The notes beneath the pieces are model-generated. The model had not been told where the DNA came from and made no database searches. It saw only the letters and a program-made list of their open reading frames with translations. 64,000 bases of DNA, taken from Adineta ricciae (Eukaryota; Rotifera; Eurotatoria; Adinetida; Adinetidae). The stretch's first letter is position 1. Each line of letters opens with the position of its first letter. Positions 29,501-58,383 of this stretch are shown one piece after another. The position numbers were made by a program, and so were the translations under genes. The stretch lies in contig CAJNOJ010000092.1 in assembly GCA_905250025.1 (NCBI GenBank), positions 1-64,000 on the forward strand, given 5' to 3'.

Positions 29501-29682
29501 ATATACCATTACCTGTTGACGACCAAACTATCACATCTGTACATACTAATAACGTGATATCCGAAGGTGGAAATGAAATGATTTTAACTGCTGCTAAACT
29601 TGTATCTGATACCATAACTCCTCTCCCTTCATCTTCTGCTAATAACAATACGACTTTATCATCACCGACAATGATTGATTAA
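26521..29682 (+). CDS. XK-related multi-pass membrane protein (XKR family)
   Basis: XKR proteins are multi-pass plasma-membrane proteins; some members scramble phospholipids. Exon 1 (26521 to about 26644) and the start of exon 2 encode a long polar, Ser-rich N-terminus. Membrane segments begin near 27330: VFIYAWGVFAFFFDMITDLV (the XKR first segment with its Asp) and LFLLTLMCVIVPNLTLSVFS. A polar loop with many Lys/Asp follows, then LTWIIRIIILVLQ, ADIALLRVFDCFMDSGSQVT, SIVSSLGSLAYALSGYSRCW, VWYLFLITPRVLALAMFA and WIIIFAHWCGMLFWVLRF. NLRKGDTRTHYIGFYT and the last membrane helices come next, before a 230-residue polar tail. The order is that of XKR4/6/7. No caspase site was assigned. Stop at 29680-29682. 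ATG 26521 directly follows an acceptor-like AG. Confidence 0.87.
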
Positions 29683-33500: not shown

Positions 33501-36066
33501 TATTGACCAAGTCGATGCTGTTCTTCAATGTTCATTACGCATTCCGGACCTTTCACCGTCGAATGATATTGATATTGATTCGCCGAAGTCTTTGGAATAT
33601 TATCGTGATAAATTAAAAGACTTGTCCAATTCTTCATTGAATATTGTATGCGATGTTTATTATTATGCCAGTCGATTATTTCGTGAAATATGTAATTTAT
33701 TAGCATCGACGATGAATCAAAACCAATCGTTGATTTCTACAAGACTTGAACAACTGACTGATATCGAAGAACATTTTGCTATTTCGGTACAAATATGTCG
33801 ACAACAGTATGGATTCTACGAACCTATTTGCTCTAATCTCGAAATCAACCAGGCGAAGAAGATTACGAAGAAACCAGCTTCAACGAAATCTAAATCAAAG
33901 AAATCACAAGGAGCAAAGTACAACAAATTTCCCAACGAAGTCTTTGTCACAGATTTTTCTTTAGGCGAACAATGCCAACAACGGAAGAAGATGAAGAAGA
34001 TGACGAAAGTAAAAGCGAAGATGAAGAAAATACTAACAAGAAGAAATCTCGAACTTCAGTTGTACCAAAATCAAAAGCCAAACCTAGTAATAGAGACTTT
34101 TCGTTTAACTTATATTTCTTTTCTTCTCTCTGTTTAGAAGCGAAATCAAAACAACCATCGATCTTCGATATTTACGAATTCGATATTCGTCCTTTGGAAT
34201 ATGTGACGTTTCACTATATCACGACATATCTCGAACAGCTACCGAAGAGTAGTGGCAAGCAACGTTTAACCATCCTGCGCTGTGTCTCAACATTAATGGG
34301 AGATCTTCATCGTTTGCTAACAAATAACAATTCGTCCATATCATCCATAGGCGTGATTAAAAAGCGGTTTAATACTCATACAGCGCCAACGACATTACAA
34401 ACCCAACAAATACGTGCCGAACATGCCGAACACGACGAAGATTTCGATGAGAACAACGACGATAAACTTGATCTGATGACATTAGAATCCTTCGAAATGT
34501 TTTTAGTACAAGTTATACATACGATGAAATATATACATATGTTCATGGGCACAACAAACACGGATGAAACAGCGAATCAATCGATGGATACAGATGATGA
34601 TGTGAATTGCTTGATCGATCGTGATCAAAGTCGTGATTTGGCTAGTCGTGCATTCTATTACGCACTGGATAGTTTTTACTTTCTCTTAAGTTTATTCAAA
34701 GTTAAACAGACAAATTGGCAGAAAGATCTGGAACGAGATACAACGTGTTTAAGTCGCTTATTGGCAATCGTTGGCAAACACATTTTGTCAACAAAAGAGC
34801 AGAAAGAAAATGAAAGAGTTCGAATTTTGAAAAAGATCTTCTCATTTGCTGAAATTCTCAATCTAATTGACGCAACTCGACTTTGTCAAGCTTTAGAATT
34901 ATTCATTCAATTATTCGATGAAGAAGAGCAACAAGTAAGCTTAGCGAAATTCTATTATGCAAACATAATTCGACTTGTTCGATTCTATTAGGATGAATTG
35001 TACAAAATATTCACAGCTAAATGTCGTCATTTCTTAGAAGAATGTAGTCTTGATACAACTTCAAGTACAGTCATATCATTTTCAAAGATTTCAACTGTAC
35101 GCGCAGTTGAGACACTGCTGAATTTATATTTACTCCATCTGGAATCCGACGAGATTACAGGTGTTATTGTTGGTATAGTAGATTATTCGTTGAAGATTGT
35201 GACACGAGCCAATGATAATGATGAAACTGATGACACGACAGAGAATGCCATTGTTGACCTTTCAACATGGAATATGAAGTCAACGTTTATCGTCTATTTT
35301 CGTTGTCTATTCAAACATTTCATCATCAAAGCACGATCGATTAAATTACCGAATGAATCGAAAAGGAAAGCTGAACTCGAAACAATCTGTGCGGAGTGGT
35401 TGGAATTAAACGATCTATTTCGCAAATTTGTCTCATTTGTGACCATTGATCAAATCTATGCAAAAAATGCTACGGTAAATTCGAATGACTGGAAAGATTT
35501 GCAATAATTGTATTCATTGTAGATCATTTCGACTGTTCTTCGGTGTTCGAAACAATATATTGATGTTTTCCGAGCTCGTGCTATGCCAACATTAGATCTC
35601 TATTTTCTTCACGATACACACGGAACAAAACAATTGCTAACTGTGTTACAAAAATCGACGCGATTGTTACAATCACTCTGCAACATGGTCAAAAAAGATC
35701 AAAAACATATGTCCTGCATACGATTAGTACCGGCATTGAAGCGGACTTTGGAAATGCTGATGTGTCGAGCTAAAGTTATGGTAGATGTGAATAATTGTCC
35801 AGCAAATGTTTTCTGTATTGGTCAATTGAAAGCGAAAGATTTGAAAGGAAATGAATTGAGTGATGTTACATATCGTCAGCAACAAGAAGAAGATGAAAGT
35901 AAGTGATTCGGAATAGGGAGTATTCAGGAGAGAGAGAGAGTTGTTGCATTTGATTTTTATTTTAGATGATACTTCTTCAACAATGGATGACGATTCGAAT
36001 GACGTACAACCCGATCAAGACGAAGAGGATGAAGAAGAAGAGGAGGAGGAGCAAGAGGAAGAATGA
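30526..36066 (+). CDS. FANCD2: Fanconi anaemia group D2 protein
   Basis: FANCD2 with FANCI forms the clamp that marks stalled forks and interstrand crosslinks. Exons run from ATG 30526 to TGA 36064-36066. Early: FITRILDECGLEIKM and the VDQGILAKRLSQRLRS block. Middle: CPQTLALFYDELANILGS then LDWFAISAADMFQEAFLNDS, matching the vertebrate LYYDEFANLI and [20 protein letters not shown]. Later: the STNAKELLDF-type helical repeats, PALKRTLEMLMCRAKVMVDV and IGQLKAKDLKGNE, the best-conserved C-terminal block of the family. A Glu/Asp-rich tail follows, as in other FANCD2 proteins. Expected length is roughly 1,500 residues. By eye the monoubiquitinated Lys (human K561) is not present. The reading frame as given is broken by a 330-base duplication around an N at 31516, most likely an assembly fault rather than a gene defect. 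Confidence 0.92.
31186..31846. repeat. 330-base direct duplication separated by one N, inside FANCD2
   Basis: Bases 31186-31515 are repeated at 31517-31846 with a single difference (31331 C versus 31662 G, a His/Gln codon). The only ambiguous base in the window, N at 31516, sits exactly between them. Reading from the first copy straight into the sequence after the second copy restores one continuous FANCD2 frame. This is what two overlapping contig ends or alleles joined by a placeholder would give. Confidence 0.95.
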
Positions 36067-36187
36067 AACCTATCTGTCAGATTTTATTTTTACTTTTCCA
36101 TATGTTCTTGTACAAATTATAGAGTCAGATATAATAAAATGATCAGATATAATTTTACTAGTTAATCACGCTGTGAAATACAACAAT

Positions 36188-38299
36188 ATGTTTCGTAGTT
36201 TTAGAATGAACTATCTTCTGTTTCTTGGATTACTGTCATCGGCTATTGCTATGCGATGGATTGTTGCTCGATATCCTTACTCAGGTAGATTGAATGGTTT
36301 GTGGTCATAATTGTAGTAGTTCATGCTTAAGGTTATAACAAACCACCGATGTTTGGTGATTTCGAAGCACAACGTCACTGGATGGAAATAACTCTGCACT
36401 TACCGGTGAACGAATGGTAATGAACAAAATGAAATGAATGTTTTTCTAGTGTAAATTATTTTTTGATTGTTAGGTATCAAAATTCGTCTGCAAATAATTT
36501 GACTTATTGGGGTTTAGATTATCCACTATTGACTGCATATCATTCCTACCTTTGTGGCTGGATGTAAGTAGTTTGAACAGCAACGTACCGTATCCTATGA
36601 TTCATATTTCCAGAGCTAATAAGATCAATCCAGCATGGTGTGCTTTGAAAGCTTCACATGGTCACGAGAGTGATGCGCATAAACTTTTTATGCGTTATAC
36701 TGGTAAGTAAACCAGAGTGTTGTCCAAACTTGATTTTCATAGAAACCGCTTCGTATAGTATTTATTGCTGATCTTCTCGTTTACTATCCAGCTGTTTTGT
36801 ACACATATCGATCTGATTTACTGAATAAAAATGTTCCAACTAAACGAGTAAGTCTTTCCATTCTCCAGTCTGCAAGCTTGACTATATTGTATCTAGTTGA
36901 CTGTTTTATTAACAAATTTGTTTTATCCTTTGTTAATCTTGACCGATCATGGTCATTTTCAATACAATTCCATTAGTCTTGGCTTTGCATTGCTAGCGTT
37001 TATCATGGCTACTCAAGAGAAATCGATTCTACTCTCCGCAGTATTCTTTACATTATCATTGAATTATAAACAAATGGAACTCTATCACGCCGTGCCAATA
37101 TTTGTCTACTTACTCTCGGCATATTGCGTCGAACAGAGAAAGATCAAGTAGGAGAATTTCCGTTTGATATGAAAGAATTTGGAAATCGTCGATTTCATTT
37201 AGATGGAAGACATTCTTCTCATTAGGTTTAGTAGTCATTGGAACATTTGCTGTGATTTGGCTTCCGGTGCTTCAACATAATCCATCTACTGTGATAAAAC
37301 GACTTTTCCCGTTTGAACGTGGTTTATTTGAAGTAAATCGTTCTTGACTAATCCATTGAATGAAAGTGCTTCTTGAAGGACAAAGTGGCGAACTTTTGGT
37401 GTACGTTGAATATATTGATAAAACTTCGAGTGAAATTTGAACATGAAACATTAGCCAAGATATGGTAAGTATTAACTTATTCCAAAACGTTGTCTTCAGA
37501 TTGTCCTTTGTTTGTAAATAGTTTATTGACAACATCATTGAGCATTTTACCTTCGTGTATAATGCTGTTTCGACGACCGACTGTGCGAAATTTCTATATT
37601 AGTCTAGTATGTGTTCATTTGCAAGAATTATACGATCATCGAATGGTTGTTTTACATTTAGTTCAATATATCCTTGTGCTTTTATTTATTTTCATTTCAA
37701 GTCCATGAAAAGACAATTTTACTGCCATGTCTGTGAGTATTCCTTCATTGTTTTCATTCGAATGAGTCTCACGCATTTACTGTGTAGCCCGATGATATTA
37801 TTATCTGCCACTTATCCAGTAGAATGCTTCACTTTTCTCCAATTTGCTATGATCAGGTAGACAAACAGAACAGACATCTTGAATTTCATATGATCACTTC
37901 GTTCTTTCTTTTAGCGTCTTTCCTCTCATGCTCAAAGATAATCTAGTATTTATCTTCTGGTTAACATTTATTGCCTTTTCAATTCTGGCTTTTCAACGTT
38001 TCTACATTCATTTCAATCATATTTCATTATTACAATTAATTCTAGTATGTTGCTCTTTCCTTTCAACTTTCCAAATCTTAGACTTCTTCTTCGTTTAGTT
38101 AACGCTATGTGTGACAGTGACCCTTCCTTTACTACTTGCTGCTGTTTACATTCGCCCGCCACGACGTTATCCAGATCTATGGATTGTTCTTATCAGTGCT
38201 TGTTCGTGTCTTTATTTTCTGAGCATATTGATTCGGTTTCATATCTATCAATTCCGAGAAACAACATTTAAACCATCTTCAACGAAAAAGATACAATAA
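36188..38299 (+). CDS. ALG6: Dolichyl pyrophosphate Man9GlcNAc2 alpha-1,3-glucosyltransferase
   Basis: ALG6 adds the first glucose to the lipid-linked oligosaccharide in the ER lumen, using dolichyl-phosphate glucose. Nine to ten exons from ATG 36188 to TAA 38297-38299 give about 500 residues. The first luminal loop has [20 protein letters not shown] and [20 protein letters not shown], with the acidic residue and the WGLDYPPLTAY motif typical of ALG6/ALG8. Further motifs: [70 protein letters not shown] and [13 protein letters not shown]. Many hydrophobic helices follow. Sequence favours ALG6 over ALG8. It starts only 121 bases after the FANCD2 stop on the same strand. Confidence 0.92.
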
Positions 38300-38445
38300 A
38301 GCTAGTACTCGTCGAAGTATCATTCATTGTTTGACATATATATTTATGAAGTAAATGATGGAATACGCGTACACACAAACTGAAATGAAATGAGAAGAAG
38401 AAAATATATATGTTTTGCATAAATGAGCATTTTGCTTGTTCGCTT

Positions 38446-41400
38446 TCAATAAATAGATTGAAGAACAGGACGAATACCACTTGAATCCATGTTCATTAGT
38501 TGTCGGGTACGATCAACTTCTGTCTGTGGGGTAATTTCGGTATTCAAACGACGGCGAGTTTCCAATGCACGTTTCTCCAACATGATCGAATTCGATTTGA
38601 CGGCGATCTCATCTTCAATACGATGTAAATTTTGCTGAAGAATGTTCCACGAATGTCTGAAATGAAAACAGTTCACTCAAACGAAAAATCTGTCAATCGA
38701 ATGGGTACTTCGCTTGTTTGAGTTGATCTTCCAAGGCACGTTTTTCAGCTTTCAATTGTTGAATTTCATCACATAACTAAATAGTTAATAGAGAGTAGAA
38801 AAGAATAATGGAATGTTATCATTCTCATACTCCGTATGAAACTTCATCACGAACCAAATCCATACCAGGTCGACTATGACGATTCTCTTGACGCGTCATT
38901 GCTAATTTGATCAATGGCTCTTTGTCTAAAATCACATATTTAGCTTTAAAGCGATTAGAAATATTTGCGACTTCATACCTCGAATAGCTTTTTCAAGACG
39001 ATCAATATCGTTTTCATTGCTGAGAATTTCTTCTTGAGTCTGCAAAACACAATGATATTGAAATTTGATTCAGATGGATTTATTGTACCTGTTTCTTCTG
39101 CCATTCGAGCTCATTGAGCGCTCGTTCGAGTTCATGAAGACGTTTTCGTAACGCATATTCGCTTGCTTTCTGTTGTGATTCGAGATCAGCTGCTGATTGA
39201 CCCATGGTATGGAATATATTTTCACGAAGGCGTGTTGATTCATACACTGAAATCGACGAGGATCAAACGTTTTCTTTCGAAGACTATTCGTGTTCTCGAC
39301 ATACTTTCTTTTTCTGCGCGATCTTTGTTATATTTTGAAAAAGCCATCCATTCTTCCGGTGTAATTTGTCCTTTGATTGGTCGACATGGGTCAGGTTTAT
39401 AACTGATATTGGGCGAGAATTCGTTCAGTTGTAAGTTTTCTTCGCAAATCGCAAAAGCTGTTTGTTTATCTTGTAAATCCTAAGTGACACTTCACAGGTT
39501 AACAACGGAAAATTCTTTTCGTTAGAGCGGAAATTTACTCGAATCAACTGTTGTTTCGCTTCGGTAAGTCGAGCAATTTGATCGAAAGATGTTTGTACTT
39601 GCTGATGAAGTTGTCGTTTAATACCATCGATCACGTAGACCTCCTACGCATGTGAAAAGAAAGAATGTTATCAGTCTTTTCTCCTTCTTTGTCAGTTGGT
39701 TAGTTCTGAGGTTTATTTCATGCCACGTATTCGAACGAATAGTTCGACTCCTGAAAGTCGAAGACGCGAACTTCTTCTATTGAAATCATCCTCGATCGAT
39801 GGACGAATTAAAACTGCGCTGAACGATGCCAAAAATGTCGTCCGAAAAAGTGTTCAGTTCGATACTCGCAAACGTTTGTCGTATGCAAAACAGTTATCTC
39901 TGTGTGATATATTCGAAGCGAATGATCTAATCGAGTGTACAACAATTCTACCACCAATTCATCGCGCCAGTACAATACTACTATTCGATGAGAATGATAG
40001 CAAACACCATGCACGAATATCGTCCACTACTTACGAATTCGTTGATCAAAACAAGAAATTATCAACGGCACCATCCATATATCATGTAGAACTAGCATTG
40101 AGTGATGATGATGATGATGACGATGTCCGTGATGGAACATATCGAGCACATTTTATAACTTGTTGTAATATAGTACCGGATTATCAATTCCTATATCATG
40201 GCCGTCGGCGAACAAGTTCGTTACCGAGTTCCACAATTACATTTGATCTTTCCATCCCGATTAAACAAGCAACATCGACCAATCGTAGTTCAAGTTTAAT
40301 GAATATAACTTCATGGCAGAATAATCCTCAAAAAGTAGTTCCTCTCCTCAGTTCTCAATATTATTGCCAACCGATTAGTCAGTTTCGGCCAAATCAATTT
40401 CTTTTAGCCACCGCTGCAGCTATCGATATATACAACATTCAAACAGGATTCTGCGAAGAACAACTACGTCTTCAATCAACAGATGTCAATTACATAGCTC
40501 TGTGCTACAATCAATACAAACAAGAACTTTTTGTTGCATCAACGACAGATTTATATGTTTATAATTTAGTCAAATGTCAAATCACTCACAAACTGCGTCT
40601 ACCTGGTTGCCCATTCAATCTAGATCATAACTCTCAGATACGATATTTAACATGCAATTCATCATCTATCTATCATGGCTATTTTACTTTTAGTTCAACG
40701 AAAACATCGACTGTCCTTTCGCGGTTGTCTCAATTTGGATTAAAACTCGTTGCCGATCTAGAATTCGAAGATGCAACCATGCATGGATTACATGCATTTG
40801 AAAATCATATTGGCGTGATTGTACGTTACGGACGGTACTCATTCAAACAACGTGAACACTATTGTTTGTATATTTATGATTCCTTACTGAAAAATATCTA
40901 CTATCAAGTCGATTTGAATGATGTTGGTTGCATCACATGCTTATCAGGCTATGAACGAACGTTAGATTGGATACTATGCGATTCCAATAAACAACGGATA
41001 TTGTTTGTTAATCAAGAATCGATTGAATATGTTCAGTACGATGAACAAATTCAGCAGTGCATGATATTGAACGAATCCAATTGGTTTATCGTTTGGGCGA
41101 AAAATCGCATGTTAGTGTATCCGATCGAATAACATACCTTTTTCAATTCACGTTCAGGTTCGTCATCAACATTGTCGATTGCTTTGCGTCCATCGCGTGT
41201 AACGTGGTTTTCTAGTGCAACATCTGTTGTTTTTTTCGAAGAGAAAAAGTGTTGATGTCGAATTCGTTGCTTGTAAAGAAATAAAAAGTTTACCTAACGG
41301 GCTTCGCATATGTGCTAGATAACGTTCACATTGTTCTTTAGCTGTTTGAATGGCTTGAATTTCGCGATCAATGTCTTGAATTGTATATTCAAGTGTTTTA

Positions 41401-41799
41401 CGCCATTTATCGATTTCATCAAGACGATCCGAGATACGCACATCACTGAAATCAAAAGAAAAACCATGCATTCGCTCTTTTGTTTAATTGTATGTTCAAT
41501 GTACTTGTCGTGTTTGTTCCACCATGATTCATTGTATGTTTCATTGGTTAATCTTCGACCATCTTGCCGTACTTGATGTGAAACATTTCTACTACGTTCA
41601 GCATCGTATGAAATAGCATAACTAATCAGAAGGACATTTAGAAAAACGGAGAATTCTGGTGAATGCATTACTTGTGATTGAACCAATCTGGTACACTATA
41701 TTTTGCACGGGGTTTTTCTTCAAGTGTTGGATGGATAGTGTGTACAGCAACTTCCGATCGAGGTTTTAACGGCTTGGAGAGTGCGTTGAATCCGCTCAT
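38446..41799 (-). CDS. TEKT2: Tektin-2
   Basis: Tektins are coiled-coil filaments inside ciliary and flagellar doublet microtubules. The gene starts at ATG 41799 (MSGFNALSKPLKPRS) and ends at TGA 38446-38448 with about ten exons. Motifs in order: YSVPDWFNHKYAISYDAE, SHQVRQDGRRLTNETYNES, DEIDKWRKTLEYTIQDIDRE, SPLDVALENHVTRDGRK, PNISYKPDPCRPI, EWMAFSKYNKDRAE, and RPGMDLVRDEVSYGLCDEI, the diverged form of the tektin signature RPNVELCRD. The C-terminus DEIAVKSNSIMLEKRALETR with the following TRRRL matches tektin-2 best. Heptads run throughout. The intron at 39644-41137 (1,494 bases) is far longer than the others and holds another gene on the opposite strand. It converges with ALG6, 146 bases apart. 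Confidence 0.9.
39720..41132 (+). CDS. Intronless uncharacterised protein nested antisense in a tektin-2 intron
   Basis: An open frame of 470 residues from ATG 39720 to TAA 41130-41132. It starts 76 bases inside the tektin-2 intron and ends 4 bases before the GT of that intron's donor on the other strand. I do not recognise the family. Residues 1-75 are basic and include VVRKSVQFDTRKRL, in which K-S-V-Q-F fits the RVxF docking motif for protein phosphatase 1. It is followed by LSYAKQLSLCDIFEAND, reminiscent of glycogen-targeting PP1 subunits. An acidic run of eight Asp lies near residue 135. Residues 215-470 have repeated beta-strand-like stretches (FLLATAAAIDIYNI, LFVASTTDLYVYNL, GVIVRYGRYSFK, LDWILCDSNKQRILFVN), which suggest a beta-propeller. 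The WD signature is not clear. Codon use and length make a chance frame unlikely. Confidence 0.8.
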   Translation: MPRIRTNSSTPESRRRELLLLKSSSIDGRIKTALNDAKNVVRKSVQFDTRKRLSYAKQLSLCDIFEANDLIECTTILPPIHRASTILLFDENDSKHHARISSTTYEFVDQNKKLSTAPSIYHVELALSDDDDDDDVRDGTYRAHFITCCNIVPDYQFLYHGRRRTSSLPSSTITFDLSIPIKQATSTNRSSSLMNITSWQNNPQKVVPLLSSQYYCQPISQFRPNQFLLATAAAIDIYNIQTGFCEEQLRLQSTDVNYIALCYNQYKQELFVASTTDLYVYNLVKCQITHKLRLPGCPFNLDHNSQIRYLTCNSSSIYHGYFTFSSTKTSTVLSRLSQFGLKLVADLEFEDATMHGLHAFENHIGVIVRYGRYSFKQREHYCLYIYDSLLKNIYYQVDLNDVGCITCLSGYERTLDWILCDSNKQRILFVNQESIEYVQYDEQIQQCMILNESNWFIVWAKNRMLVYPIE

Positions 41800-42035
41800 G
41801 ACTGAAAGAACGATGTTTTAAAATCAAAATAAGAATGTTGATCCGAAGTGAGCGCGGAGGTTATGTTTGGTTCGCCATTTTAATTCTCATCTCTATGGAC
41901 TGTCTTGACAACAGTCATTGTTCAAATGGAAATAGATTCGTGGTGTTCGACGATAAGAAACTCCTCAAGTGCCTTTTTTAAAAAGTATTCTATTGAAAAA
42001 ATGTGCTTGAAAGAAAAGATTTGAAAAGAGGTCGC

Positions 42036-43534
42036 CTAAGTCAATTTGTTCGTCCATTCGAGAAGTATATCAGTCAATTCTTGTACAATCAATGAATCAA
42101 CTTTGAACAATTTGATCAAGAGTTCAGTAAAATGATGTGACCCGTGTTCGAGATACAATCGAATCAAATCTTCAATCGATTCTATATGATACTGTTGCAT
42201 AAGTAAGCAAGTTGAATTTGACAACAATCGGTTCAATTGATAAATTGAATGAAAATCATCTTTGCAGTAATTGACATGTGAATTACATCGACGTATCATA
42301 GGTTTGCCTAGTGAAACACCAAAATGCTCACCACGATGTAGTATTATACCATCGGATACTTCTTCAATGAGTGTTGTATTCTGATGTTTGAACTTGAAAG
42401 AATTAGTTTTTATTATATGCAACTCCTTATCAAATACAGTCATACTTTTGGTAAAAACGATGGTATAGGTTCGTTGCTACTCTCCATACTAGTTGTATTT
42501 TGTTTATGATTATTATTGCTGTTGATGGAACGAATTACTGATGATGAATTTTCTAATGTTGTGAAGTGACTCTCATCGTTTGAACATGATTCACTGAGAA
42601 TTTTTGATAGATTCTCCACACATTGATTTACATTGTTGAAAATTGTTTTTCTTATACAATTTTTCTTGTTCAATTCTGAATAGTTCGTTTACAATGACGA
42701 TTCTTGAAATACTCATGCGAAAATGAATTTACCTTCACTACAAAATCGCTTTTGACTGTTATTTCGATCGTTTACAGACAATTTATTCTTTTTCAATACT
42801 TCACAAGGAACGAGGTCGTCGTCTTTGGTTGAATTATACGACAAGGAATCAAATGTATCATTTGAGATCAGGAAATTCGGCCGTTGTTCCGCTGCAAGAA
42901 CGATTTCAGATCGACCAGCATCGCTGTTAACATTCTGAATTCCAACACTAAGTTTCATAAGATTTGGTTTGAATGAATTCAGTTCTTCCACTACTTGAGA
43001 CGGCTTCATGCCAGTTTGCACTAATCGTGCCCGTAATGGCATGGACCAGAAGAATAAAACGGAGAGATTTCGGGCAAATATCGACTTTGCTGCTTGTCTA
43101 CTAGTCTCCGTGGGTACTCGGTATCGATTTAACTTGCATTCATTGATGAACGAACTCGTGCCTTTTTGTTGTTGGTTTACAAACAAACATGGACTTCTCC
43201 ATTGGGGTTGAAAGATATACTTCACTATTCCTTGTTGATCGACAATAGTTGATGATACAGTGACAGCCTCATATGATGTTGTTGGTGTTTGTTCATCGTC
43301 ACCATCATCATTGAATATGTAAGTAATGCCAGCTGCAGCGCATGCAGCTGCAGCTAAAAGCATCAATAGATTGGTTTCTATAGCCAAAAAAAAAGATTTT
43401 CCAAATTCTTTTCTTTGAGTTATATTGCGCCTAATGAAAATTCTATTGCTGACATCGATATAATGCTGAAATGGAAGTAGGAAATCGAGAAATAAGGTAA
43501 ACGCGAAAGAAGTTGAAATATATGTTTGCAACAT
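42036..43534 (-). CDS. Uncharacterised protein with N-terminal hydrophobic segment
   Basis: Three exons join in frame: about 42730-43534 (start uncertain), then 42450-42670, then 42036 to about 42391, with phase-consistent introns. I do not recognise it. The likely N-terminus contains a hydrophobic Ala/Leu segment, LLMLLAAAACAAAGITYIF, which could be a signal anchor if translation begins nearby. An acidic DDGDDEQ follows. The middle is Ser/Asn-rich. The last 130 residues look folded: SDGIILHRGEHFGVSLGKP, HSIYQLNRLLSNSTCLLMQQ, IEDLIRLYLEHGSHHFTELL and IVQELTDILLEWTNKL. A Met within ATG-CTT-TTA (about residue 57 of the open frame) may be the true start if the TTTGGCTATAG upstream is an acceptor. 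Function unknown. Confidence 0.6.
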
Positions 43535-44890
43535 CTCGGTGTAGGTAGATAATATAAATATTAAAGGAATTGGAAAGTTGGAAAATACCGATGGTATCTA
43601 TGTCAGCTTCTACCGTGAAGGTGAGAGTAGAACTGATGATGTAAATAATTTGCTTTTAAGACAGTATCTGACTTTTTACACGAAATATGGATGAAATGGA
43701 ACGCAAATTCTTTGTCCTATTCCATTCCGTGTGGGACGCTAGTGACGACTGCATGATGAAAACGTCTATTGAAGAAAATGGAAATCAATCAGTTTCCACA
43801 TCAAATGGTTAAATACAAAATTGTTGTTCTTCTACAAACACCTAATCAAGAGCTCCGAGTAAACGGAATTCATCGAATGACTCATTTCTGATTCATTGCA
43901 AGAACAGCGTTCGAAATCTTTTCACAGAAAGTTAAATGCCGCGATATTGAGCACTTTTTCAGTTTCTTTATCTTGTTGATCAATTTTTGACTGCAACATT
44001 ATGGAAGTACAAGCTTTGTTTGACTTTGATCATTTGTTGCATCACTATCAAAACTTTGGTCACGTTGATATAGTGATAGAACTGAATTATTCGAATCTCG
44101 AATCGTGGTCATAGTTTGTCAATCAAAATTTAACAATAAATAGCATTCCGTCGCAAATCATCATCAAATACAATCAAACTAGAATTTTGTCCGTTCACGT
44201 AGAATGTCTAAAGTTATTCATTGATCCGTTTCATTAATAAACAGAAAAAGACAAAATTTTCATCTTCATGTTCGTGAAACAATAATTAGATCTTCTCACG
44301 AAGCGAAGCTATGGCGGATCGTTTCTGACGATAAATCGATACGCTTCTGATTATCATTGTGGTAATCGCCGCCATTGAAATACAATTCCATAAAACTGAG
44401 AAATAGATAACGAAATAACAAATAAACGAAAACACTGTCTTATATCTGTATCCGATAAGAAAGAGAAAGAGACAGAAATGTAATCTTATCGTTTGAATTC
44501 ACAATCAAATAGTGGGATAAGAGTGGGATTATTTCAAATCGTGAATGAATAAGTACATACAGGGTGTGGGTGTGTGTGAAAGGGACAAATACTATATTAT
44601 ACATAATAAATTCAGTCGCTTTGGCAGCCAAAAACTAAATATCAATAGACTTTGCATATCATCGAGGTCAATTTTTATACTTGAAACATGGGTCACAGAA
44701 TCAATCTATTCGTTTTATTGTGTCATATATATGTGACATCTCTATCTGTCCTCTATATCGCACATATTCATTCGTTCTTTTTCGAAATTATCCAATAAAG
44801 TAAAGTTCTGCAGCTTTGATGTAATGTAATGTAAATGTAAAGACAGCTGCCAGCCAGACCACCAAGTTTTTCGATTTTTCACAGATCGAA
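43535..44890. other. Intergenic between divergent orphan and TERT genes
   Basis: About 1.36 kb with no convincing frame. A small TGTAATG tandem lies near 44820. It ends with the TTTTTCACAG acceptor-like tract 6 bases before the TERT start codon. Confidence 0.5.
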
Positions 44891-47800
44891 ATGAATATTC
44901 TTAAAACTCGTTATCCAGAACTATATGCTCTCCACCAAGCGATACCGAATATCGATCATGACGGTAAAGATCTTTTTCGTGGACTATACCTCACAAAAAA
45001 GATGACAAAAAATCAAGATCGCCATTGGAAAGACCTGCTTGCAAGAAAACAAACTTCAACTGATAATCAATCATTTCTATCGAATCTCTTGCACAGTTGT
45101 CATAGGAAAAATCGTTTAAACATCCTCCTAACAAATATTGATCTCAAAATGAATAATCATGATTATCTTTCGAAAAACTCGCTAATATCGCATATCTATT
45201 TATCAAATATATGGTTCGAACGACGAAAACTACTATCGGATGAAGCTGTCATATATCTGTTAAGTGAATTTACGATTATTGAATGTTTAACCCGTAAACG
45301 AAAGTTATTCATGCAAATAAGTGGTACACATGAAACATTTTATAGTTTACCTTATTATATCGCTAGAAAAGCGGAAGAAAAGCAGCAAGCGCATAAACGG
45401 GCAAAGAAAATCAACACTAGGAAACGAACAATTCAATTTCATTTACACGCTACTAAAGAAGGACAACAAGCACATCTGACAGATTTGTATGAAACATCAA
45501 TTCCAAACCATTTGATGCATTATCATGTCTCAAAATTCGAACGATTTGATGTCTATTCTCCAATTGAAAAAGCTTACAACGGAGAAATGCTAGTTGAAGC
45601 TTTCTTTTCGTCTGATTTTAGCAAAGGATTCTTTAGTCATCGACCTAAGGAAGAAGTGGTAATATTTATCTTTCGATTGTCTTTACAATCACATTAACTT
45701 TGTTATTTAGGAGCAAATCCGTGAAAATCTCATTCCGATCTTCGAACGATTTCGATCGAACCATCACGAATTCTACCTTCGCCGTCGATCACGTCTACCT
45801 CTTGCCTACACTCTTCATCATATTCCGGAACCTACAGCTACAGTGGACCAATTGATATCTCTGACAACACCGCTCGCTACTGTTCAACATTTTGTTCGTG
45901 TTTGGTTAACACATGTTTTTCCAGTTGAATTATTCGGCACAAAATATAATTCTCGATTATTCATCCGTCGCATGTGTTTCATTCTTCAATTACCACGCAT
46001 TCAGCAATATTCGCCAGGTGAAGTAATGCAAAAATTAAAACTAAACAAATGTCAATGGACAATCATCTCGAACAAGTTATCATCACTTGTTCGTCATCTG
46101 TATTTTGGTCATTTAATATATTTTCTTATTCATTATGTTCTGACACTAAGTCGTTCGTATTTCTATGCTACAGAAGGATCTTCACCATCTCATCCATTAG
46201 TTATGATCTTCTATCGACATAAGATTTGGTAAGAGAGCATTTCGGAGTTCGCGCATCGAATTCATTTTGCCACATAGGTATGCTATTCAACAGAAATCTC
46301 GTTGTGAACTATTGGAAAAAGCTTGCGCCCCAACAGTTCAACAAGAATTTGTCAGTGATTGTCATGATATTCGTTATCTATGGAAGGTACGCTTTGTACC
46401 GAAGAAAGCCAGCGTTCGTTATCTAGCCTGTGCTCAAGAAGGAATCAATACGAAAGAAAATATCAATCATTTAAAATATACAAATGAAGTTTTGAAGTAT
46501 CTGCGTCGACACAACAAGCATTTATTAGGTATTGCTACATTTAATCGAGTAGAAATGCATCGACGCTGGCAAGAATATTGTCAAACAGCACCGAAAGTAG
46601 AGAGCGGAAGCATGACATACTTTCTAGTAGGTTGACATTCGTGTTTATCTTTGATTGATTTAACTTGAATTTGAATTCTAGAGAAGTGACGTGTCGAATT
46701 TTTACGATTCAATCAATATTGATTGTTTAGATCAAGTAAGTCAGATATGAAAACTATCGAGTACATTGCTTCGCTAAAAACTCTGTTTGCATACACCAGA
46801 CAATAAAACAAAATTATGTCATTGATACATGATGATTAATCTTGTTCAAATAATAATATCCGAAAACAGTTCTCCGCCCTGTTCTTCTCTTTTTAGGCAC
46901 TGGTGGAATTTCTCAACGACTGTGAATTCAATTACAACTTGCATATACATACTATTTATAAAACCCAGTATCGTAACGGCCGGATCATTCGCAAACGAAC
47001 TCTCTTTTGGGTTGGTAAAGAAAATGAATCGATGTGTGCAACACTACTCGATGATACAAAACCAGTCAATAATGGTATCTTTCATGATATGGTCATCCAC
47101 GAAGGACACATTGAAGTATATGATAGAGCCAAACTATTGAAATATATTCGTGCTCAATTATACAAGTAAGTATCTTTCAGTTTTCTGCGCTTTTTAAAAA
47201 ATGTCGTTTAGTTCGTATCTTTACACGCGTCATTCGACAATGTCATCGATTAAATCATACCGTCGCACAGTTGGCATCAATCATGGTTTACGTATCGCGT
47301 CAATGCTTGGGCAAATCTATCTAAATAAAATTGATAATGATATCAAGTTTAGTCCGTTGGAAGACGAGTTCGCGGTTCGACATGAAGACGATCTTTTGAT
47401 CATTTCTCCACATCGTTACCGTCTCCGTCGAATTAAATTACATATGAATCAACGATTGAATGAATTACATCATATAACAAATCCGTTGAAAACTTCGCTG
47501 AAAACCAAAACCAATATTCGCCATAAGACAATGAAAAAAATCCGTCCTGTAGAATATTGGGGTTCACTTGTCGATATTCAGTCACGGCAAATCTTTGTTT
47601 CCATCAATCCCAACGAAAATATTCAAAACAAAATCAATCACTTAACCATCAAAGTCACGCGTGAACCCGGTTACAACGTTCGTCAATCGTTATTAAACGC
47701 TCTGAGCCTTCGCTCACATTCCTACTATTTCGATCGTTTATATACGACAGCGAACACGTTAATTAAGAACTTCTATTCGCTCTCATGCTATTATTTCAAA

Positions 47801-48127
47801 CGTTTACATTCCATATGTTATCGTTTTGCTCAAATCTATTCGAATCAGTACGTGCAGTCGAAAAGTTTATTCCTGTTCCGCACTATTCGTTCAGGATTAC
47901 GGTTGTTAATCAAAAAAGCATTTATATTCAGTCAAAAATCAACAATGGTGATCAATCAATGTAAATATGTCTTTTTTATAGCATGCTTAAGATTAATTCG
48001 ACGAAATAAACACCTTTTTCAAAATGAAATTATGACAAAACGATTTGCACATATGATAAAAAAATTGAAATATCTACCTAAAAAACGCAAACATGATTTA
48101 AAGAAACTCATTGGTATCAAACAATAG
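44891..48127 (+). CDS. TERT: Divergent telomerase reverse transcriptase
   Basis: Six exons (44891-45658, 45711-46228, 46278-46626, 46682-46735, 46897-47165, 47212-48127) join in frame into 957 residues. TERT extends telomeres from an RNA template. The CP/T region is present: PVELFGTKYNSRLFIRRM, YSPGEVMQKLKLNKCQW, then SRSYFYATEGSS and VMIFYRHKIW, the counterpart of FFYVTET--FYRKSVW. Motif 1/2 is LWKVRFVPKKASVRYL. Motif A is RSDVSNFYDSI, about residue 546. Motif B is VGINHGLRIASML, about 673, where most TERTs have GIPQGS. Motif C is RHEDDLLIIS, with both Asp at 712-713. Motif E is YWGSLVDIQSRQIF. All three catalytic Asp are present. The N-terminal 256 residues show no clear TEN domain. Against a retroelement: T/CP motifs, many spliced introns, no endonuclease, no terminal repeats. 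Confidence 0.88.
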
Positions 48128-50502
48128 TCTATTCAGTTTCTATCATATATATATATATGTGTGTGTGTATTGTTTTTCTATGATTAGAAATATAATAACG
48201 TTCATAACACGATTGGATCTTTTCTACTTAAGTGCAATATTGGCATATTTTTACATTCGAATCTGCTCGAATTGAACCTCGATTATTTGCCTATTCTTTT
48301 CTTCCATTCAGCTATTTGCAACTCCTTTCGCCACCACTTCAACTTCGATAGTCTTTTTCATTCACACATCAAAATGCTTCTCATTCGCTGCACTAATATT
48401 GACGCTACTCATCTTCGCTAGATCAACATTCAAATCGTTCGCTAATATATCATTTTCATGACGGATCTCATTTCTTTTCTGACGAAGAAGTACTAGGCGA
48501 ACCGCAGACAACTTTTGTCGCAACTAAGAGTAAGACATTGAGCGTTGATGAACTCGCTTAACTGAATAAGTCTAAAAGACATAATTGAGTTAAATTCCTT
48601 GTCAGAGTGACATTGTTTGCATTTATTGTTGCACTAAAACATCTTTATTTCTTGTCGAAATTAATCCTTTCAGAATTATAACGAATTTGTTTCTAATGAG
48701 ATGAGATTCTCTCGAGAGACATTGACACGTTTTTAGAGTACTTAATTACTACAAACATTTTGACAATTCGAGAACAAATGACGGATTATATAAAAAACTG
48801 ATAATTCAAACGGTGTTCGCTGGTATTTTCAATTATCTCTATCCAATGCAGCATACTGCACGATCAGTTGTTTAAAGGTAAGAATCTCAAGGTCTTGAAA
48901 ATGACATTGAATCGTCGATAGCGAAGAAAATGATCGCACTGCAGATCCATCGCATTATGGATGGATATATCCTCGCTTTACTAATATCATTTTCAAAACC
49001 TTGACAATCTAATTATAGAACTGATCTAGTCTTCCGTGTTCAGCATGTAAACGATTATTGAATAATCTTCGTTTTTTATCGATCACGCCGTATACTAGTT
49101 AAACATGTTACCGGGCGACGTGACTTTGTTCTCTTTGTGGAAATTGATATTCAGTAGTAGCAGCTAACGATTAGATCAGAAAGAAAAACGTTTGTTCAAA
49201 CGCGGTACGAAACGCATTGAGAACTTCCGGTCTCCTAAGACGTTCAAATCAAAGTCGTTTGTCATTTAAAGATTAAACGATTATTTGATATTGTTCTTCT
49301 CGTATCGATTTCTACTTCATCAATCGTCGCCGTAACATATATGATGAAAAATATCACCGCTCTACTGTAATTTCCTTCCTTTCATTTGCACACACAGATC
49401 TTCATGCGAAGAAATGATGCAGAAAACAATTGCTTCTTTTTCCAGCTAACATACATCTCTTCATAGTGATCCACTAGTCCAATTTCATTGGTAATCCTTC
49501 TGAATAGATCGATCGACTCCTTCCACTTCTTGTCGATGCACACATATGGAACAATACTAATCATTCTGATTGTAATAAGACGAGACTTTCGTTCGGAAAT
49601 GATCCTATCTGAAGCTCGATTTCGTTCATTATTATTCAGTCACACATGTGTCGAGTGAGTGCAGCTGAGAGAGAAAATCTTCTGCCAGAGACACGTTATC
49701 ACTGCCATAAATATCGCATTCAATTTAATTCATTCAGCCGGAAAGAATATATTAACGGATCGTATCGATTAGATTTTTTAATTGCATCATGATAGAAATG
49801 CAAAATAGATTACCAAGCGAAATCATCATCCCCTGGAAAATGAGGATTAAAATTAAAGTGTCTACAGGCATGATTAAATTTTTGTTTCCTACGATTGTTT
49901 TATGTGACTTCAACGATGTTTTAGAGCTTTTTGTTCGTTATTGATAGTTTCATTTACATGAGAACGATATAATTAGTCTCGGTTCAGTCATTGTGTGACA
50001 ATGTCACGAATAGAACCGGATAATGATGATCATGTACTGCTAAATACATATCAACATATTGCCAGAGGTTGGTTAGATCGAGCGAGGGGGATAGAAAATC
50101 TTTTGTCAAACAACCTATTGTCAGTTTTTTACAAAAATATCCTAACTAGCGCGTTTTTCTCTTCCTCTTTAAATACGATAGTAAACATAGCAAAAATATA
50201 GATTGCCGAAGAATATATATATATATTTTCTTTTCTTTTTTTTTGTATGCTCTCGTTCAGTATTCTTATATCTATATGACTAGCATGAGTATTTTCTATT
50301 ACATTCTCCAAACTAAGTATCAAAAACTGAGAATGACTACTAAGTTCAATTGTTTCTATTGATAAATCTATTTTCTTCACAAATCAACGCCGAGATAGTT
50401 TCCTCTTATTCCCGTTTCGTCAATGATCAGGGAGAAATTCTTTTCCTCAAATCCATTAAATATTCTCTTTCAGATTAAATCCAACACAGTCGTATTACAA
50501 GC
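48128..50502. other. Long intergenic region with an inverted repeat
   Basis: About 2.4 kb. No coding frame is convincing. It holds an AT/GT simple repeat near 48148-48170, an imperfect hairpin at 48888-49003 (listed separately), and a CTTTCAG acceptor-like site 30 bases before the neuropeptide start codon. Confidence 0.5.
48888..49003. ncRNA. Imperfect 116-base hairpin, possible small-RNA precursor
   Basis: The first 21 bases (from CAAGGTCTTG) pair with the last 21 (ending AAAACCTTG) with two mismatches. Weaker pairing (AGCGA with TCGCT) and a short inner hairpin (TCCAT with ATGGA) follow inside. It lies in a gene-free region. Size and arm length are compatible with a microRNA-like precursor, but a chance or decayed inverted repeat is equally possible. 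Confidence 0.3.
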
Positions 50503-50935
50503 ATGTACAGTAGCAGAAATTCAATTTTGCTTATTACCTTAACAGTTGCTCTTCGTAAGATTCTTTAAAAGAAGAAAAAAAAACATAAAGGAAATCATTC
50601 AATTATGAACTCATTTAGTTCTTCTCTGGTGTACAGTACAACCAACATCTGCTGATACGAACGAAGAAGAATCTCATCATGTCGTCGAAACTATGGAAGA
50701 AGATAATAGTGACAATGATTTAATTGATGATTTTCTTGATTTGTACGAACGTGCATCTCTTCGTCCTGTTGCTATACAACAACGTGCATCCCTTCGACCA
50801 TTTGCTGGTAAACGTGCATCTCTCCGACCATTTGTTGGTCGTCGTGCATCACTTCGACCATCGGCTGGCAAACGGGCATCCCTACGTCCAGCAAATCATT
50901 TGGGCAAACGAAAACGACGAAGCTCTGATGAATGA
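50503..50935 (+). CDS. Neuropeptide-like precursor with five RASLRP repeats
   Basis: Two exons, 50503-50554 and 50637-50935, give 116 residues. The N-terminus MYSSRNSILLITLTVALL, followed by QPTSA, is a typical signal peptide with a likely cut after TSA. An acidic spacer (NEEESHH to DLIDDFLDLYE) leads into five tandem units, each beginning R-ASLRP: ASLRPVAIQQ, ASLRPFAGKR, ASLRPFVGRR, ASLRPSAGKR and ASLRPANHLGKRKR. Four of the five are followed by Gly and a dibasic site (GKR or GRR), the standard signal for prohormone-convertase cleavage and C-terminal amidation. Predicted mature products are ASLRPFA-amide, ASLRPFV-amide, ASLRPSA-amide and ASLRPANHL-amide. Codons of the repeats differ mostly at silent positions, which argues for selection on the peptide. 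I do not recognise the peptide family. Acts presumably by secretion from neurons or glands. Confidence 0.85.
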
Positions 50936-51977
50936 AGCAATCAATCATCATGAAATCTTTCTTTGGATAACTAAGATGATCTTCTCACTTATTTTTTCTC
51001 TTTTTTTGCTTACAAAACATCAAGAAATAAAAATGTAATAAAAATTATTTCACCGAAGATCAACTGACAGGTGTCAATCGTGTTGAACTTTCGTAGAAAG
51101 ATGAATAATAAATCAAGCACACATTACTGAGAACGCGATATATCGAACGAATGCACAGTTACCGCAGTAATGTCAATCGCTAACTTTAGATTTCCGAGAA
51201 AGAATCACGGTAAGCGTTCGCAAACATCGTGTAACTGGTCTTATGTAAAGCTCAAAAGTCAATATTTTGCTCTTTTATCGTTGTATCGCCATAGGGAAAA
51301 TTGCGTTGGAGCTACTTTAGGAAGTTACTTTTTATAGATCTTGACTTGTAGAAGAATAGCTATGTTGAAAAGTTCATTTATGAAAATGAAGGCGTGAGAG
51401 AAGAGAAATCAACATTAAAATAATGAAACGGATGGAAGATACAGATGATTGTCAATTTGGTTAATTACAGAAAAAAAACACAAGACATATTTTCGACATT
51501 TGATTGTATCTATATATGGCATAATTGATAAAATTCAGCAAATTAGAACATTTTTATGTAATTTGGGAGAAAATCATCAGAAATATTCACTCTTTGCTCC
51601 CAAGATTTCAAGGATTGATCACCATAGTCGATGTCAGTCTAATGAGAAATTAGTCTCAAGCGAATGTCTGATAAGACGGCTGAGCTTAGCAATCACGGTC
51701 AGACATTGCTTATTATAGATAACTCGAAGAAAGTAATAATCAAATCAGCGAAACGATAAGTCGATCTGTATAAAACATAAACAGAACTATTCATTTATGA
51801 ACGACGTCAACGAACAAATGAGAACATGCAAGTGTATTGTCGTCGAATAAAACAATAAATTGCCTTTTTTATTTTTTCAAATGCGGCGATGAATAAAAAC
51901 TGCAAGAAATCACTTGTAACAGTAAAACTTATAGTCTATGCATGGTTTGCTTCTGAAAAGTACCTAATCATGACTTT
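50936..51977. other. Intergenic, no gene recognised
   Basis: About 1 kb, AT-rich, with no convincing frame. It contains the 3' ends of the neuropeptide-like gene and the convergent IDH gene. Confidence 0.5.
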
Positions 51978-53906
51978 TTATGTTGCTTGATTGAATTTCT
52001 TGTCGAGAGTTTTCTTCACTTCAGTAATGAAATCTTTGGTATTTAAATACATGCCTTCTTTCACACTAAAACAAACACGTAAAGATCATATTATTTAGAC
52101 GATTTTCCTGGATGGAAAAATCTCGTTTCGTCGAATAGGAAGTCGATGAAAGTACTTCTCATTTGACAAAACAAGATCTAACTGCTTTTTGAGAATCAGA
52201 GTCTTACTCTTTAAGTCCGTGTATGCAAATTGCAAGATCCTTCGTTATTTTTTGAGAATCAACTGTTTCAATACACGATTCTTCAAGTAATCGGCACCAA
52301 CTGAAGAGTGAAAGATATCAATCACTGTGTTTTTTTTACAGGGTGTAATTGTTTACCGTTGAAGTTCTTCGTTACCATCAAGTTTACCACGATGTTCGAG
52401 ACCACGTGTCCATGCAAATATACTCGCAATCGAATTTGTACTTGTTGCTTTTCCCTAGAACGACAAGCTGATTAAGTTTGTGTCTTTGGAATGACATGTT
52501 GTTACTTTTTGATGTTCTCGATAATGACGGGTTACAGTGCCATGTGCAGCTTCAGCTTCGATTGTTTTCCCATCGGGACAAACAAGTACCGACGACATAA
52601 GACCAAGGCTACCATAACCTAATGAACTCGGAATAGAAGAAAGATTTTTAGCAACGAAATACCTTGTGCAACAATATCAGACTGAACATCACCGTCGTAA
52701 TTTTTACATGCCCAGACAAAGCCACCGCTACTTTTGAGCGCTTGAGCAACCATATCTATCAAAGAATCACTTCCGTCTATTTTCATGTACAATTGACAAA
52801 ATTTGATTATGTACCATCAATTAATCGATGCTCATACCAGATCTTTTTCTCTTCAAATTCTTTTCTATATTGCTTTTGATATATCTCTTCGAATATATCC
52901 TTGAAACGTCCATCGTATCGCTTAAGAATGGTGTTTTTCGTTGATAGATACAACGGATAATTCTACAAGAATCACTTTTCATTTATTCTATATCATATCA
53001 ATGAAATCGCATACCTTTTTCAGCGCATATTGAAAACATGAATGAGCAAATCCAGTGATCGATTCATCAGTATTATACATAGCTAATGAAACACCACCAG
53101 TATTTGTAAAGTTGAACACCTCGACTTCTGTAGCTGCAGAACCATCCGCCGGTTCATATTTGAGTGTTACACGTCCTGGACTTTTAATCACCATGTCTTG
53201 ACACCGATATTGATCACCAAAAGCGTGGCGACCAATGACAATCGGTTCTTTCCAGCCGGGAACCAACAATGGAATAGATTTGCATATAATCGGTTCCCGA
53301 AATACAGTGCCACCCTATGTAAATTATAAGCATACAATGTGATCTTCTTCCTCTTGCTTGTAGAAAACGACACTTACAAGAATATTACGAATAGTTCCAT
53401 TCGGAGAAAGCCACATTTTTTTAAGAGAAAATTCTAAAAGTTCGAGTGATGATGTGTCGAATAGAAAGTTGGAAGACCATTTTTACCTTCTACACGTTGT
53501 TCATCAGGTGTTATCGTGGCACACTTTATACCGACGTTATATTTTTGAATGGCATGCGCTGCATCAATAGTCACTTGATCATTCGTAGCGTCTCGATTTT
53601 CGAGGCCCAAATCGAAATATTTGCACTCAACATCAACATAAGGAAAAATAAGCTAATCAAAGGAGATTTATGAAAGTAAGACTGTCATCCTAATAAAACG
53701 ACATGTAACGAACCATTTCTTTGATCCATGCCCAGATAATTCGAGTCATTTCATCTCCATCCAATTCAACAATTGGATTGGCAACTTTAATTCGTTTTCG
53801 CGATGTTCCATCTGAATCTATAAGAAAAGTACACTAGTTATCAGATCGAAATAGTGTACAACGGGAAATCTCTACTTGAGTGTTTGGTATCTTCGTGCGA
53901 CGACAT
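51978..53906 (-). CDS. IDH1: NADP-dependent isocitrate dehydrogenase
   Basis: Homodimeric IDH oxidises isocitrate to 2-oxoglutarate and makes NADPH. About ten exons. The main start is at 53906 ([10 protein letters not shown]); stop at 51978-51980. Motifs in order: [151 protein letters not shown] and [20 protein letters not shown]. Metal- and substrate-binding residues are present. There is no mitochondrial presequence and no peroxisomal SKL tail (it ends KFNQAT), so a cytosolic enzyme is likely. The symbol marks the eukaryotic NADP type; exact IDH1/IDH2 orthology is not shown. Confidence 0.92.
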
Positions 53907-57090: not shown

Positions 57091-57636
57091 ATAATGACCG
57101 TCCGTTTTTAGTTGTATTTTATGTACAGTTTTATTTATATAGTATATTGAATGAAATTCAGTGCAAATTTGTATTTCTTTTGTTATAAATAGTCATATTT
57201 CATTCGACTGTTGGAACTGTTTATGTTTATTCAGTGCAAAAAGCTTCTTCAATGATAATTAATGATTAATGTCTTTTTTTTTCGCTCTCACTGATGAAAA
57301 AGTTGCTACATATACACGCTTTTATTCTGAAAAGGTCGACTGAAGATTCATTAATCAAAACATTGATCGCGTCTTTTTTCTTCGAAATTTGAATTGTGAT
57401 AATAGCAGATGGATATCGATTTATCAATTGAGATCACGTCGTGTTCGTTCTCTCACTTTCTCTTTCCGCTTCTGTGTCAATGATATCTGTTTTCTCTTGT
57501 TGTTCTCGACAATAAATGATCGAAAGAGAACAAGTAACGTATGCGTGTTGTTTACATATGTTAAAAACGTGTATACATGTATAATGAACAATCCAGACGG
57601 TAGATAAAACAGCAGAGAAGCAAAAAAGGTGTCTAT
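57091..57636. other. Intergenic between convergent capping-enzyme and Hox genes
   Basis: About 545 bases, probably 3' untranslated sequence of both genes. No other gene is supported. Confidence 0.5.
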
Positions 57637-58383
57637 TTAATCTTGCAGTTCTTGCTTGATTGACGTTTCGATCAATTTTGATTTCGTGTTCGGCAAATTG
57701 TGATCTTTTTTCCATTTCATTCGTCGATTCTGAAACCAGATCTTTGACAGACAACAAAAGATTTTCGAATAAAACTGAAGAGTTCTTCTTTACCTTAACT
57801 TGTCGTTCGGTGAGTACTAACGTACGAGCGATTTCAATTCGTCGACGACGGTTTAGATACTTTTTGAAATGAAACTCTTTTTCTAATTCTAAGATTTGAC
57901 TCCGAGTATACGCTGTTCGAACGCGCTTGTACGTTTCCGTTCCATCGTTATTTTGAACGAGATTTTTAACATGAAGTTTCTTCATCCAAGGATAAATCAC
58001 ATTGGAAGAAATCGTTTCGGAAGTCGCTTTGGTCAATCTAAATACAAAATGTTTGCTTCTATTGGAAAGTAAGATCAGTTTTCTTACTCTGATGACATCG
58101 AGATACTATTTGAATGTGATAGTGGACTTGTTTGAACAAGATTTTGTTGAGTGAACGGTGCATAGGTATTGTAATGTGATTGGCAAGTGTTCGTTATTGA
58201 TGGATAACTATTTGATGGCGTATAGTAGTCATAGTAGGACGAAGAAGGTGGAGCAGGACATGATGAAATAGCATAACAATTCGTAGTATGTGCTGGTGAC
58301 GGATATAAAGAAAACGTCTCCGATGTCGAAGGTATTGGCCATTCGTGATTATAAGGATATGGGGTTTGGCATGGAATATCCAT
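57637..58383 (-). CDS. Hox4: Hox4 / Deformed-type homeobox protein
   Basis: Three exons. Exon 1 (58088-58383) encodes a Tyr/Ser/Pro-rich activation region starting [19 protein letters not shown]. Exon 2 carries the hexapeptide [13 protein letters not shown], a short linker, and most of the homeodomain: [39 protein letters not shown] and TERQVK. A phase-0 intron falls between homeodomain residues 46 and 47. Exon 3 completes it with [20 protein letters not shown], and the protein ends about ten residues later at 57637-57639. The KDHxLPNTK extension and YPWMKK hexapeptide are diagnostic of the Hox4/Dfd class. It binds DNA with PBC cofactors through YPWM and sets anterior axial identity. About 210 residues. 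No other homeobox gene is in the window. Confidence 0.93.

Follow-up and report, generated by a model that had tools for sequence, protein, structure and literature searches.

A two-exon gene at 50503-50935 (+) of the DNA analysed here very probably codes for the precursor of a neuropeptide (or peptide hormone) in the bdelloid rotifer Adineta ricciae; its transcription, processing and receptor we infer from sequence. The DNA comprises positions 1-64000 of contig C92 (the window), and searches for relatives covered a genome of 130 Mb in 1033 contigs. A neuropeptide precursor had also been the reading of a preliminary description, and the leader, acidic spacer, repeated core and Gly-dibasic sites on which it was built are now joined by a core kept in a duplicate gene and by PAM-like and furin-like fragments in the same genome.

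Structure of the probable precursor gene

The features of the gene, and its counterpart on contig C19, are as follows.

50503-50935 (+): peptide gene of two exons; its product has a leader, then an acidic spacer, then five units of RASLRP
50472..50473 (+): CTTTCAG, a candidate 3' splice site preceding the ATG, which may serve as acceptor for a spliced leader or within the 5'UTR
50503..50554 (+): exon 1 coding part, with the start codon and the first part of the signal-peptide-like leader
50555..50618 (+): phase-1 intron, GTAAG...TTTAG, 64 bp, whose donor and acceptor sequences the C19 copy shares
50619..50935 (+): exon 2 coding part, including the stop codon
50619..50653 (+): remainder of the signal-peptide-like leader; putative cleavage site guessed after residue 29 (between PTSA and D)
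50654..50749 (+): acidic spacer, residues 30-61, with 13 D/E and zero K/R in residues 31-61
51026-51031 and 51037-51042 (+): two AATAAA polyadenylation-type signals
C19, ATG at 209946 and stop ending at 209590 (-): duplicate gene of 102 residues, with a modelled intron of 48 bp

The C19 gene was found by tblastn of a 116-residue form of the protein against the genome, as its single strong relative apart from itself (C19:209587-209868, minus strand, E 4.9e-23). Other matches included C52:468317 (E 2.29) and C213:509, where no repeat was seen by eye in 1500 of 2200 bases, inspected as DNA only. Read without splicing, the C92 frame from the ATG reaches a stop inside the intron, so the intron is required in this gene. 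The preliminary description gave a protein of 116 residues, as would result from an acceptor at 50636. We rejected this site because the C19 copy has no AG there; that copy keeps TTTAG at the equivalent of 50618 and the sequence around it (TTTAG/TTCTTCT.TGGTGTAC, the slash marking the start of exon 2 in C92). Exon 2 therefore most likely starts at 50619, and the C92 protein most likely has 122 residues, MYSSRNSILLITLTVALLLLWCTVQPTSA being followed across the putative cleavage site by DTNEEE. Both acceptors (50618 and 50636) may be used in the C92 copy. Exon 1 was modelled at 52 nt in the C19 copy as well, and AATAAA is present downstream of it too. The C19 frame remains open across its modelled intron, so splicing there was modelled from the kept GTAAG and TTTAG.

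Hydropathy in a 12-residue window reached a maximum of 3.03 at residues 8-19 of the C92 protein and 3.41 in the C19 protein, with maxima of at most 0.31 and 0.48, respectively, past residue 35. Judged by hydropathy only, the leader of both copies reads as a signal peptide. The signal peptide, acidic spacer and five tandem R-ASLRP units of the preliminary description were all recovered at 50503-50935 (+).

Repeat units and predicted peptides

The RASLRP units of the C92 gene start at 50750, 50783, 50813, 50843 and 50873.

50750..50782 (+): unit 1, R-ASLRPVAIQQ, without an amidation Gly and with a single Arg behind it
50783..50812 (+): unit 2, R-ASLRPFA-GK, predicted ASLRPFA-amide
50813..50842 (+): unit 3, R-ASLRPFV-GR, predicted ASLRPFV-amide
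50843..50872 (+): unit 4, R-ASLRPSA-GK, predicted ASLRPSA-amide
50873..50911 (+): unit 5, R-ASLRPANHL-GKR, predicted ASLRPANHL-amide

Units 2-5 run into FA-GKR, FV-GRR, SA-GKR and ANHL-GKR, in agreement with the earlier count of four units followed by Gly and dibasic residues. The C19 gene has R-ASLRPVVVYQ in the place of unit 1, and its units read ASLRPVVVYQ, ASLRPFT-GKR, ASLRPF-GKR, ASLRPF-GKR and ASLRPPSYF-GK-stop, so that four of five units carry a Gly amidation site in each copy and the final site of C19 is GK followed by the stop codon. Of the earlier name for the peptides, ASLRPxx-amide, the core stands; the two-residue tail is too narrow, given ASLRPANHL-amide from unit 5 and ASLRPF-amide (twice), ASLRPFT-amide and ASLRPPSYF-amide from C19. 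Predicted [M+H]+ values of the amides are 760.446, 788.478, 700.410 and 977.564 for the C92 gene and 689.409, 790.457 and 1036.557 for the C19 copy. The last residues of the eight predicted amides are A, V, A and L (C92) and T, F, F and F (C19), with the N-terminal ASLRP constant. Short repeat precursors are usually disordered.

When each of the two proteins was shuffled 20000 times, no 5-mer appeared more than two times, compared with five appearances of ASLRP in the real sequences. At the DNA level the RASLRP-like pattern itself is not enriched, with 49 matches genome-wide and 129 for the reversed control. Ten of the 49 lie in the C92 and C19 genes, and no two of the remaining 39 are within 8 kb of each other. 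DNA resembling LRPFG[KR] gave ten matches, two of them in C19, and five in the reversed control. Seven of the eight outside C19 (all but C180:200323) were examined and rejected, the open frames having 9-40 residues and no repeat. Three ASLRP matches on C57 were likewise discarded, since they lie in three different frames in DNA that, by eye, resembles leucine-rich repeats.

Comparison with known peptide families

No Pfam family exceeded its gathering cut-off for the window protein; the best matches, over residues 9-49, were PF15240 (15.2 bits, cut-off 30) and PF02950 (14.2 bits, cut-off 25.1), and the C19 copy gave no Pfam match rows. Nothing meaningful was found in NCBIfam with either copy or among PDB sequences with the window protein, and viral and prokaryote contig collections yielded nothing related to the C19 protein, which is unsurprising if the gene is an animal one. 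Among 5.39 million open-access papers, searches with core strings returned, as judged from titles and the opening lines of abstracts, no report of a peptide with an ASLRP core; a prior listing in a supplement or in an annotated rotifer proteome is possible. The earlier claim of an undescribed family thus holds for the open-access literature, supplements lying outside that search, and public bdelloid proteomes are likely to list the gene's product as a hypothetical protein. In the excerpts available, a spider mite ARPFAAMLamide (PMC6880623) and a nematode FIRPFADQ (PMC5344539) are without the ASLRP core.

The gene could instead belong to a known lophotrochozoan family, such as FCAP (feeding circuit-activating peptide), MIP/PxFVamide, RFamide or RYamide, as a diverged rotifer representative that has lost the defining C-terminus; we consider this unlikely. 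The precursor of the Mytilus inhibitory peptides/PxFVamide and other repetitive lophotrochozoan precursors hold many short peptides with dibasic cuts and Gly for amidation, and the C92 and C19 precursors likewise would give dibasic-cut short peptides with Gly for amidation. The C92 and C19 precursors differ in that only one of their eight predicted amides ends in FV (ASLRPFV), without P-x-F-V, and what these eight have in common with one another is the N-terminal ASLRP. None of the eight ends in RF, RY or PxFV, which we take to be the defining C-terminal motifs of the RFamide, RYamide and PxFVamide families, so a conserved amidated C-terminus of these families is lacking, and no Pfam family passed its cut-off. 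In favour of a known family, FMRFamide and RYamide precursors are described in Rotifera, and FCAP-related precursors in three Rotaria species (PMC6425005). As the available part of that paper describes them, FCAPs resemble the C92 gene in coming from a repetitive secreted precursor of related short peptides that is present in bdelloids. The same description, in which peptide length is fixed at 11 residues, the copies number 8-9 and variability lies toward the N-terminus, sets them apart from the C92 and C19 precursors, which have five units of variable length, peptides of 6-10 residues, an invariant N-terminus and a variable amidated C-terminus. Rotifer EP/CCHamide peptides, which have a cysteine pair (PMC6617912), and APGWamide/AKH in Brachionus (PMC10730642) also come from precursors found from sequence, and the descriptions in the excerpts are unlike ASLRP repeats.

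The ASLRP precursors remain a new family within a familiar type of gene rather than a system of a new sort. According to the part of a 2021 survey available to us, sampling of gnathiferan neuropeptides has been sparse; it names an in-depth gnathiferan search as the next frontier and states that only a small number of precursors came out of the sole study, on three Rotaria species (PMC8557429). The present genes supply a definite peptide family, duplicated and under selection, whose exactly predicted masses can serve peptidomics and which is ready for receptor screens.

The duplicate gene and selection on the core

The C19 gene lies in a larger region of similarity. Comparison of the window with C19:185501-235500 by blastn gave 19 segments. 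They run in a single order from window position 2754 to 62933, every one inverted, with 66-82% identity. Because these segments are collinear, we interpret C92 and C19 as a duplicated chromosomal block rather than a lone gene copy. Bdelloids are degenerate tetraploids, with which collinear duplicate blocks fit. Bdelloid genome duplication is also mentioned in the excerpt available of PMC5818035. When the five units of one gene were paired with those of the other, pairing by position had the lowest mean DNA distance among the 120 possible arrangements (2.6, compared with 4.2 for non-positional pairs), therefore the five-unit precursor probably predates the C92/C19 block duplication.

Conservation between the two genes, both from one genome and in part a stand-in for a comparison of the core across related rotifers, is concentrated in the core. 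In the protein alignment all 30 core positions are identical, compared with 11 of 21 positions between and after the cores (10 more fall in gaps; Fisher test of core against inter-core identity, p = 2.8e-5) and 20 of 51 in leader and spacer (again 10 more in gaps). Nei-Gojobori estimates, each from a small sample, point the same way: dN was 0.017 and dS 0.54 in the core, where the dN arises from path averaging at one Leu codon, dN 0.36 and dS 0.50 between cores, and dN 0.47 and dS 1.02 in leader and spacer. The preliminary description had noted that the repeat codons vary mostly at third positions around an invariant core, and this extends to all ten cores of the two genes: of 26 single-base departures from the consensus, 23 are at third and three at first positions, and every core still reads RASLRP. 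The ten cores use four Leu, four Ser and five Arg codons, the last for the two Arg positions together, and two Leu codons (TTA) are two bases off the consensus and silent in combination only. Given that 35% of the possible single changes in the core are silent, the codon pattern has a probability of 1.6e-12, a figure that assumes independent, single changes and is a guide only. These substitution patterns indicate that the ASLRP core is under purifying selection across the old duplication.

Predicted processing and the nature of the peptides

In the mechanism we propose, the leader would carry the precursor into the secretory pathway, where a furin/PC-type enzyme would cut at the basic residues that precede every ASLRP and follow every Gly. 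These residues would then be trimmed off by a carboxypeptidase, and PAM would convert the exposed Gly to a C-terminal amide. The predicted products of the C92 gene are ASLRPFA-, ASLRPFV-, ASLRPSA- and ASLRPANHL-amide, perhaps with free ASLRPVAIQQ, and their proposed receptor is a G-protein-coupled one that would recognise chiefly the constant N-terminal ASLRP.

For the enzymes, the PHM C-domain model PF03712, a family common to dopamine beta-hydroxylase relatives, had 16 matches in the genome, and the P domain PF01483 had 13. Open frames were examined at three loci for each model, and one fragment for each was compared with PDB sequences. The first (locus L025) matched PAM chains only, in 13 of 13 rows (best E 4e-8), and the second (locus L031) had furin as the first of 21 rows (7e-49). 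These fragments point to PAM-like and furin-like enzyme genes in the genome.

The same convertase and amidation route would also serve a secreted multi-copy peptide of non-neural use, for example in epithelial defence, a gland or cement secretion. Sequence anatomy by itself does not separate a neural from a non-neural amidated peptide, and some animals make defence peptides from amidated precursors. Most membrane-active defence peptides are, however, unlike the peptides predicted here, which have 6-10 residues and one Arg each, and purifying selection on the core suits a receptor ligand better than a fast-evolving effector. We thus regard non-neural use as quite improbable. A chance open frame or functionless low-complexity repeat has a negligible probability: repeats can arise by slippage, but we found no positive evidence for this, and the diverged collinear duplicate keeps the splice-site sequences, the core and the order of units, with codons that vary while the residues stay constant.

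A second precursor type in the same genome

More distant kin of the gene are likely to exist in the same genome. With the C19 protein as query, we obtained weak matches on C213 (E 0.0013), C230 (E 0.0048) and C151 (E 0.059), each of which leads to a precursor of a second type.

C213:171520-171850 (locus L045): second type, 93 residues
C230:84403-84730 (locus L046): second type, 93 residues
C151:217285-217640 (locus L047): second type, 94 residues

These proteins follow the pattern RRASLRY[HQ]PH[IV]LY-KK-ASL[KR]P[LI]IG[HQ]NGK and have no amidation sites; those of C213 and C230 end in RRASLRYHPHILY-KK-ASLKPLIGHNGKMIFGDRERY and that of C151 in RRASLRYQPHVLY-KK-ASLRPIIGQNGKLTFVKRDQF. In all three, a phase-1 intron was modelled within the leader after 46 coding bases, and the unspliced frame stops in C213 and C230 and is open in C151. 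Over 20 kb, C213 and C230 show 93-95% identity and are thus probably alleles. A partly collinear block of 65-75% identity links C213 with C151 (six segments in one orientation and two at the end inverted), and because both genes lie between its matched segments, they look like an old duplicated pair similar to C92 and C19. Their proteins agree at 24 of 36 residues in the tail and at 22 of 55 before it.

Like the C92 type, the second type has a phase-1 intron in the leader, a spacer, a non-amidated first unit R-R-ASLR, a basic site and then an ASL[KR]P unit. Unlike it, the second type has two units only, no Gly-dibasic amidation site and a longer C-terminal peptide. Local alignments of the two types exceeded 2000 of 2000 shuffles in all eight comparisons, the aligned pairs having been selected by a search, and for C92 without its leader the margin was narrow (scores of 58-59 against shuffle maxima of 51-54). 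In the best alignment YRRASLR--PVVVYQRASLRPFTGK pairs with FRRASLRYQPHVLYKKASLRPIIGQNGK. Reverse searches were less consistent: the C213 query retrieved C19 at E 0.020 and C92 at E 0.118, along with C21:119846 at E 0.80; the C151 query gave no match to C92 or C19 with E values as high as 10; and tblastn of the window protein against the genome retrieved none of the second-type loci C213:171523, C230 and C151. The stretches of C213 (30 kb) and C151 (40 kb) compared with the window by blastn at 1e-8 contained no match. Intron phase and place, spacer and order of units agree between the types. We consider the two types likely to be kin, through a weak sequence link (E 0.001-0.06 in the genome search with the C19 query). 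If they are true kin, the C92/C19 genes and the second type would be older paralogues. No Pfam family passed its cut-off for the C213 and C151 proteins, and the peptide strings of the second type were not found in the open-access literature; the stretch IIGQNGKLTF may resemble insect ITG-like peptides, as a lead only.

Amidated neuropeptides normally keep their C-terminus. Here ASLRP is fixed, the amide ends vary and the second type, the probable sister, retains ASLR and ASL[KR]P yet lacks Gly-dibasic amidation sites, which suggests an N-terminal message with a free tail. Opioid-type precursors offer an analogous layout, with a fixed N-terminal YGGF core and a varying C-terminal tail, although there is no sequence relation and amidation is common in the ASLRP precursor. 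We put forward tentatively, as a possibility short of even likelihood, that the two types form an undescribed bdelloid (perhaps gnathiferan) family whose receptor reads the N-terminal ASLRP while the tail varies, amidated or not, and in which, earlier than the genome duplication of bdelloids, a five-unit amidated precursor arose from an ancestral two-unit non-amidated one (now C213/C230 and C151) or vice versa. If this is true, one animal would allow a test of how C-terminal amidation changed and of what this means for the receptor. The ASLRP genes also offer an example of an amidated peptide conserved at its N-terminus, with a probable non-amidated sister precursor beside it in the genome.

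Surroundings of the gene and spliced-leader exons

Nearly the whole window (2754-62933) is one arm of the C92/C19 collinear block. Two parts are much longer than their C19 equivalents: 41799-50726 spans 8.9 kb compared with 1.7 kb, and 29228-38450 spans 9.2 kb compared with 1.2 kb. Because an open reading frame inside the former (47198-48127) has a weak reverse transcriptase match (PF00078, 30.2 bits, cut-off 29.6), the excess in 41799-50726 probably stems from a retroelement that inserted on the upstream side of the peptide gene. Beyond the gene, an open frame at 52455-52676 (-) has a weak isocitrate dehydrogenase match just below the cut-off (PF00180, 26.1 bits, cut-off 27), and another at 57434-58105 (-) contains a homeodomain (PF00046, E 1.7e-12).

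Rotifers have a 23-nt spliced-leader exon, listed as the consensus 'Rotifera 1' in Table 1 of PMC3795323, and the excerpt available of PMC1925144 reports a 23-nt leader exon common to two bdelloid species of different families and none found in the monogonont Brachionus. Allowing at most one mismatch, we found this exon at 41 places in the genome (C2, C6, C8, C43, C77, C79, C99 and C146) and at none in the reversed control, in keeping with a bdelloid genome. In all 41 copies the first base is T where the published rotifer consensus has G, and 34 of them form 17 divergent pairs, 14 of which are about 150 bases apart. A GTAAA donor directly follows the exon in the three loci examined, and the TTTCAG found close upstream of the ATG in both the C92 and the C19 copies is a candidate trans-splice acceptor.
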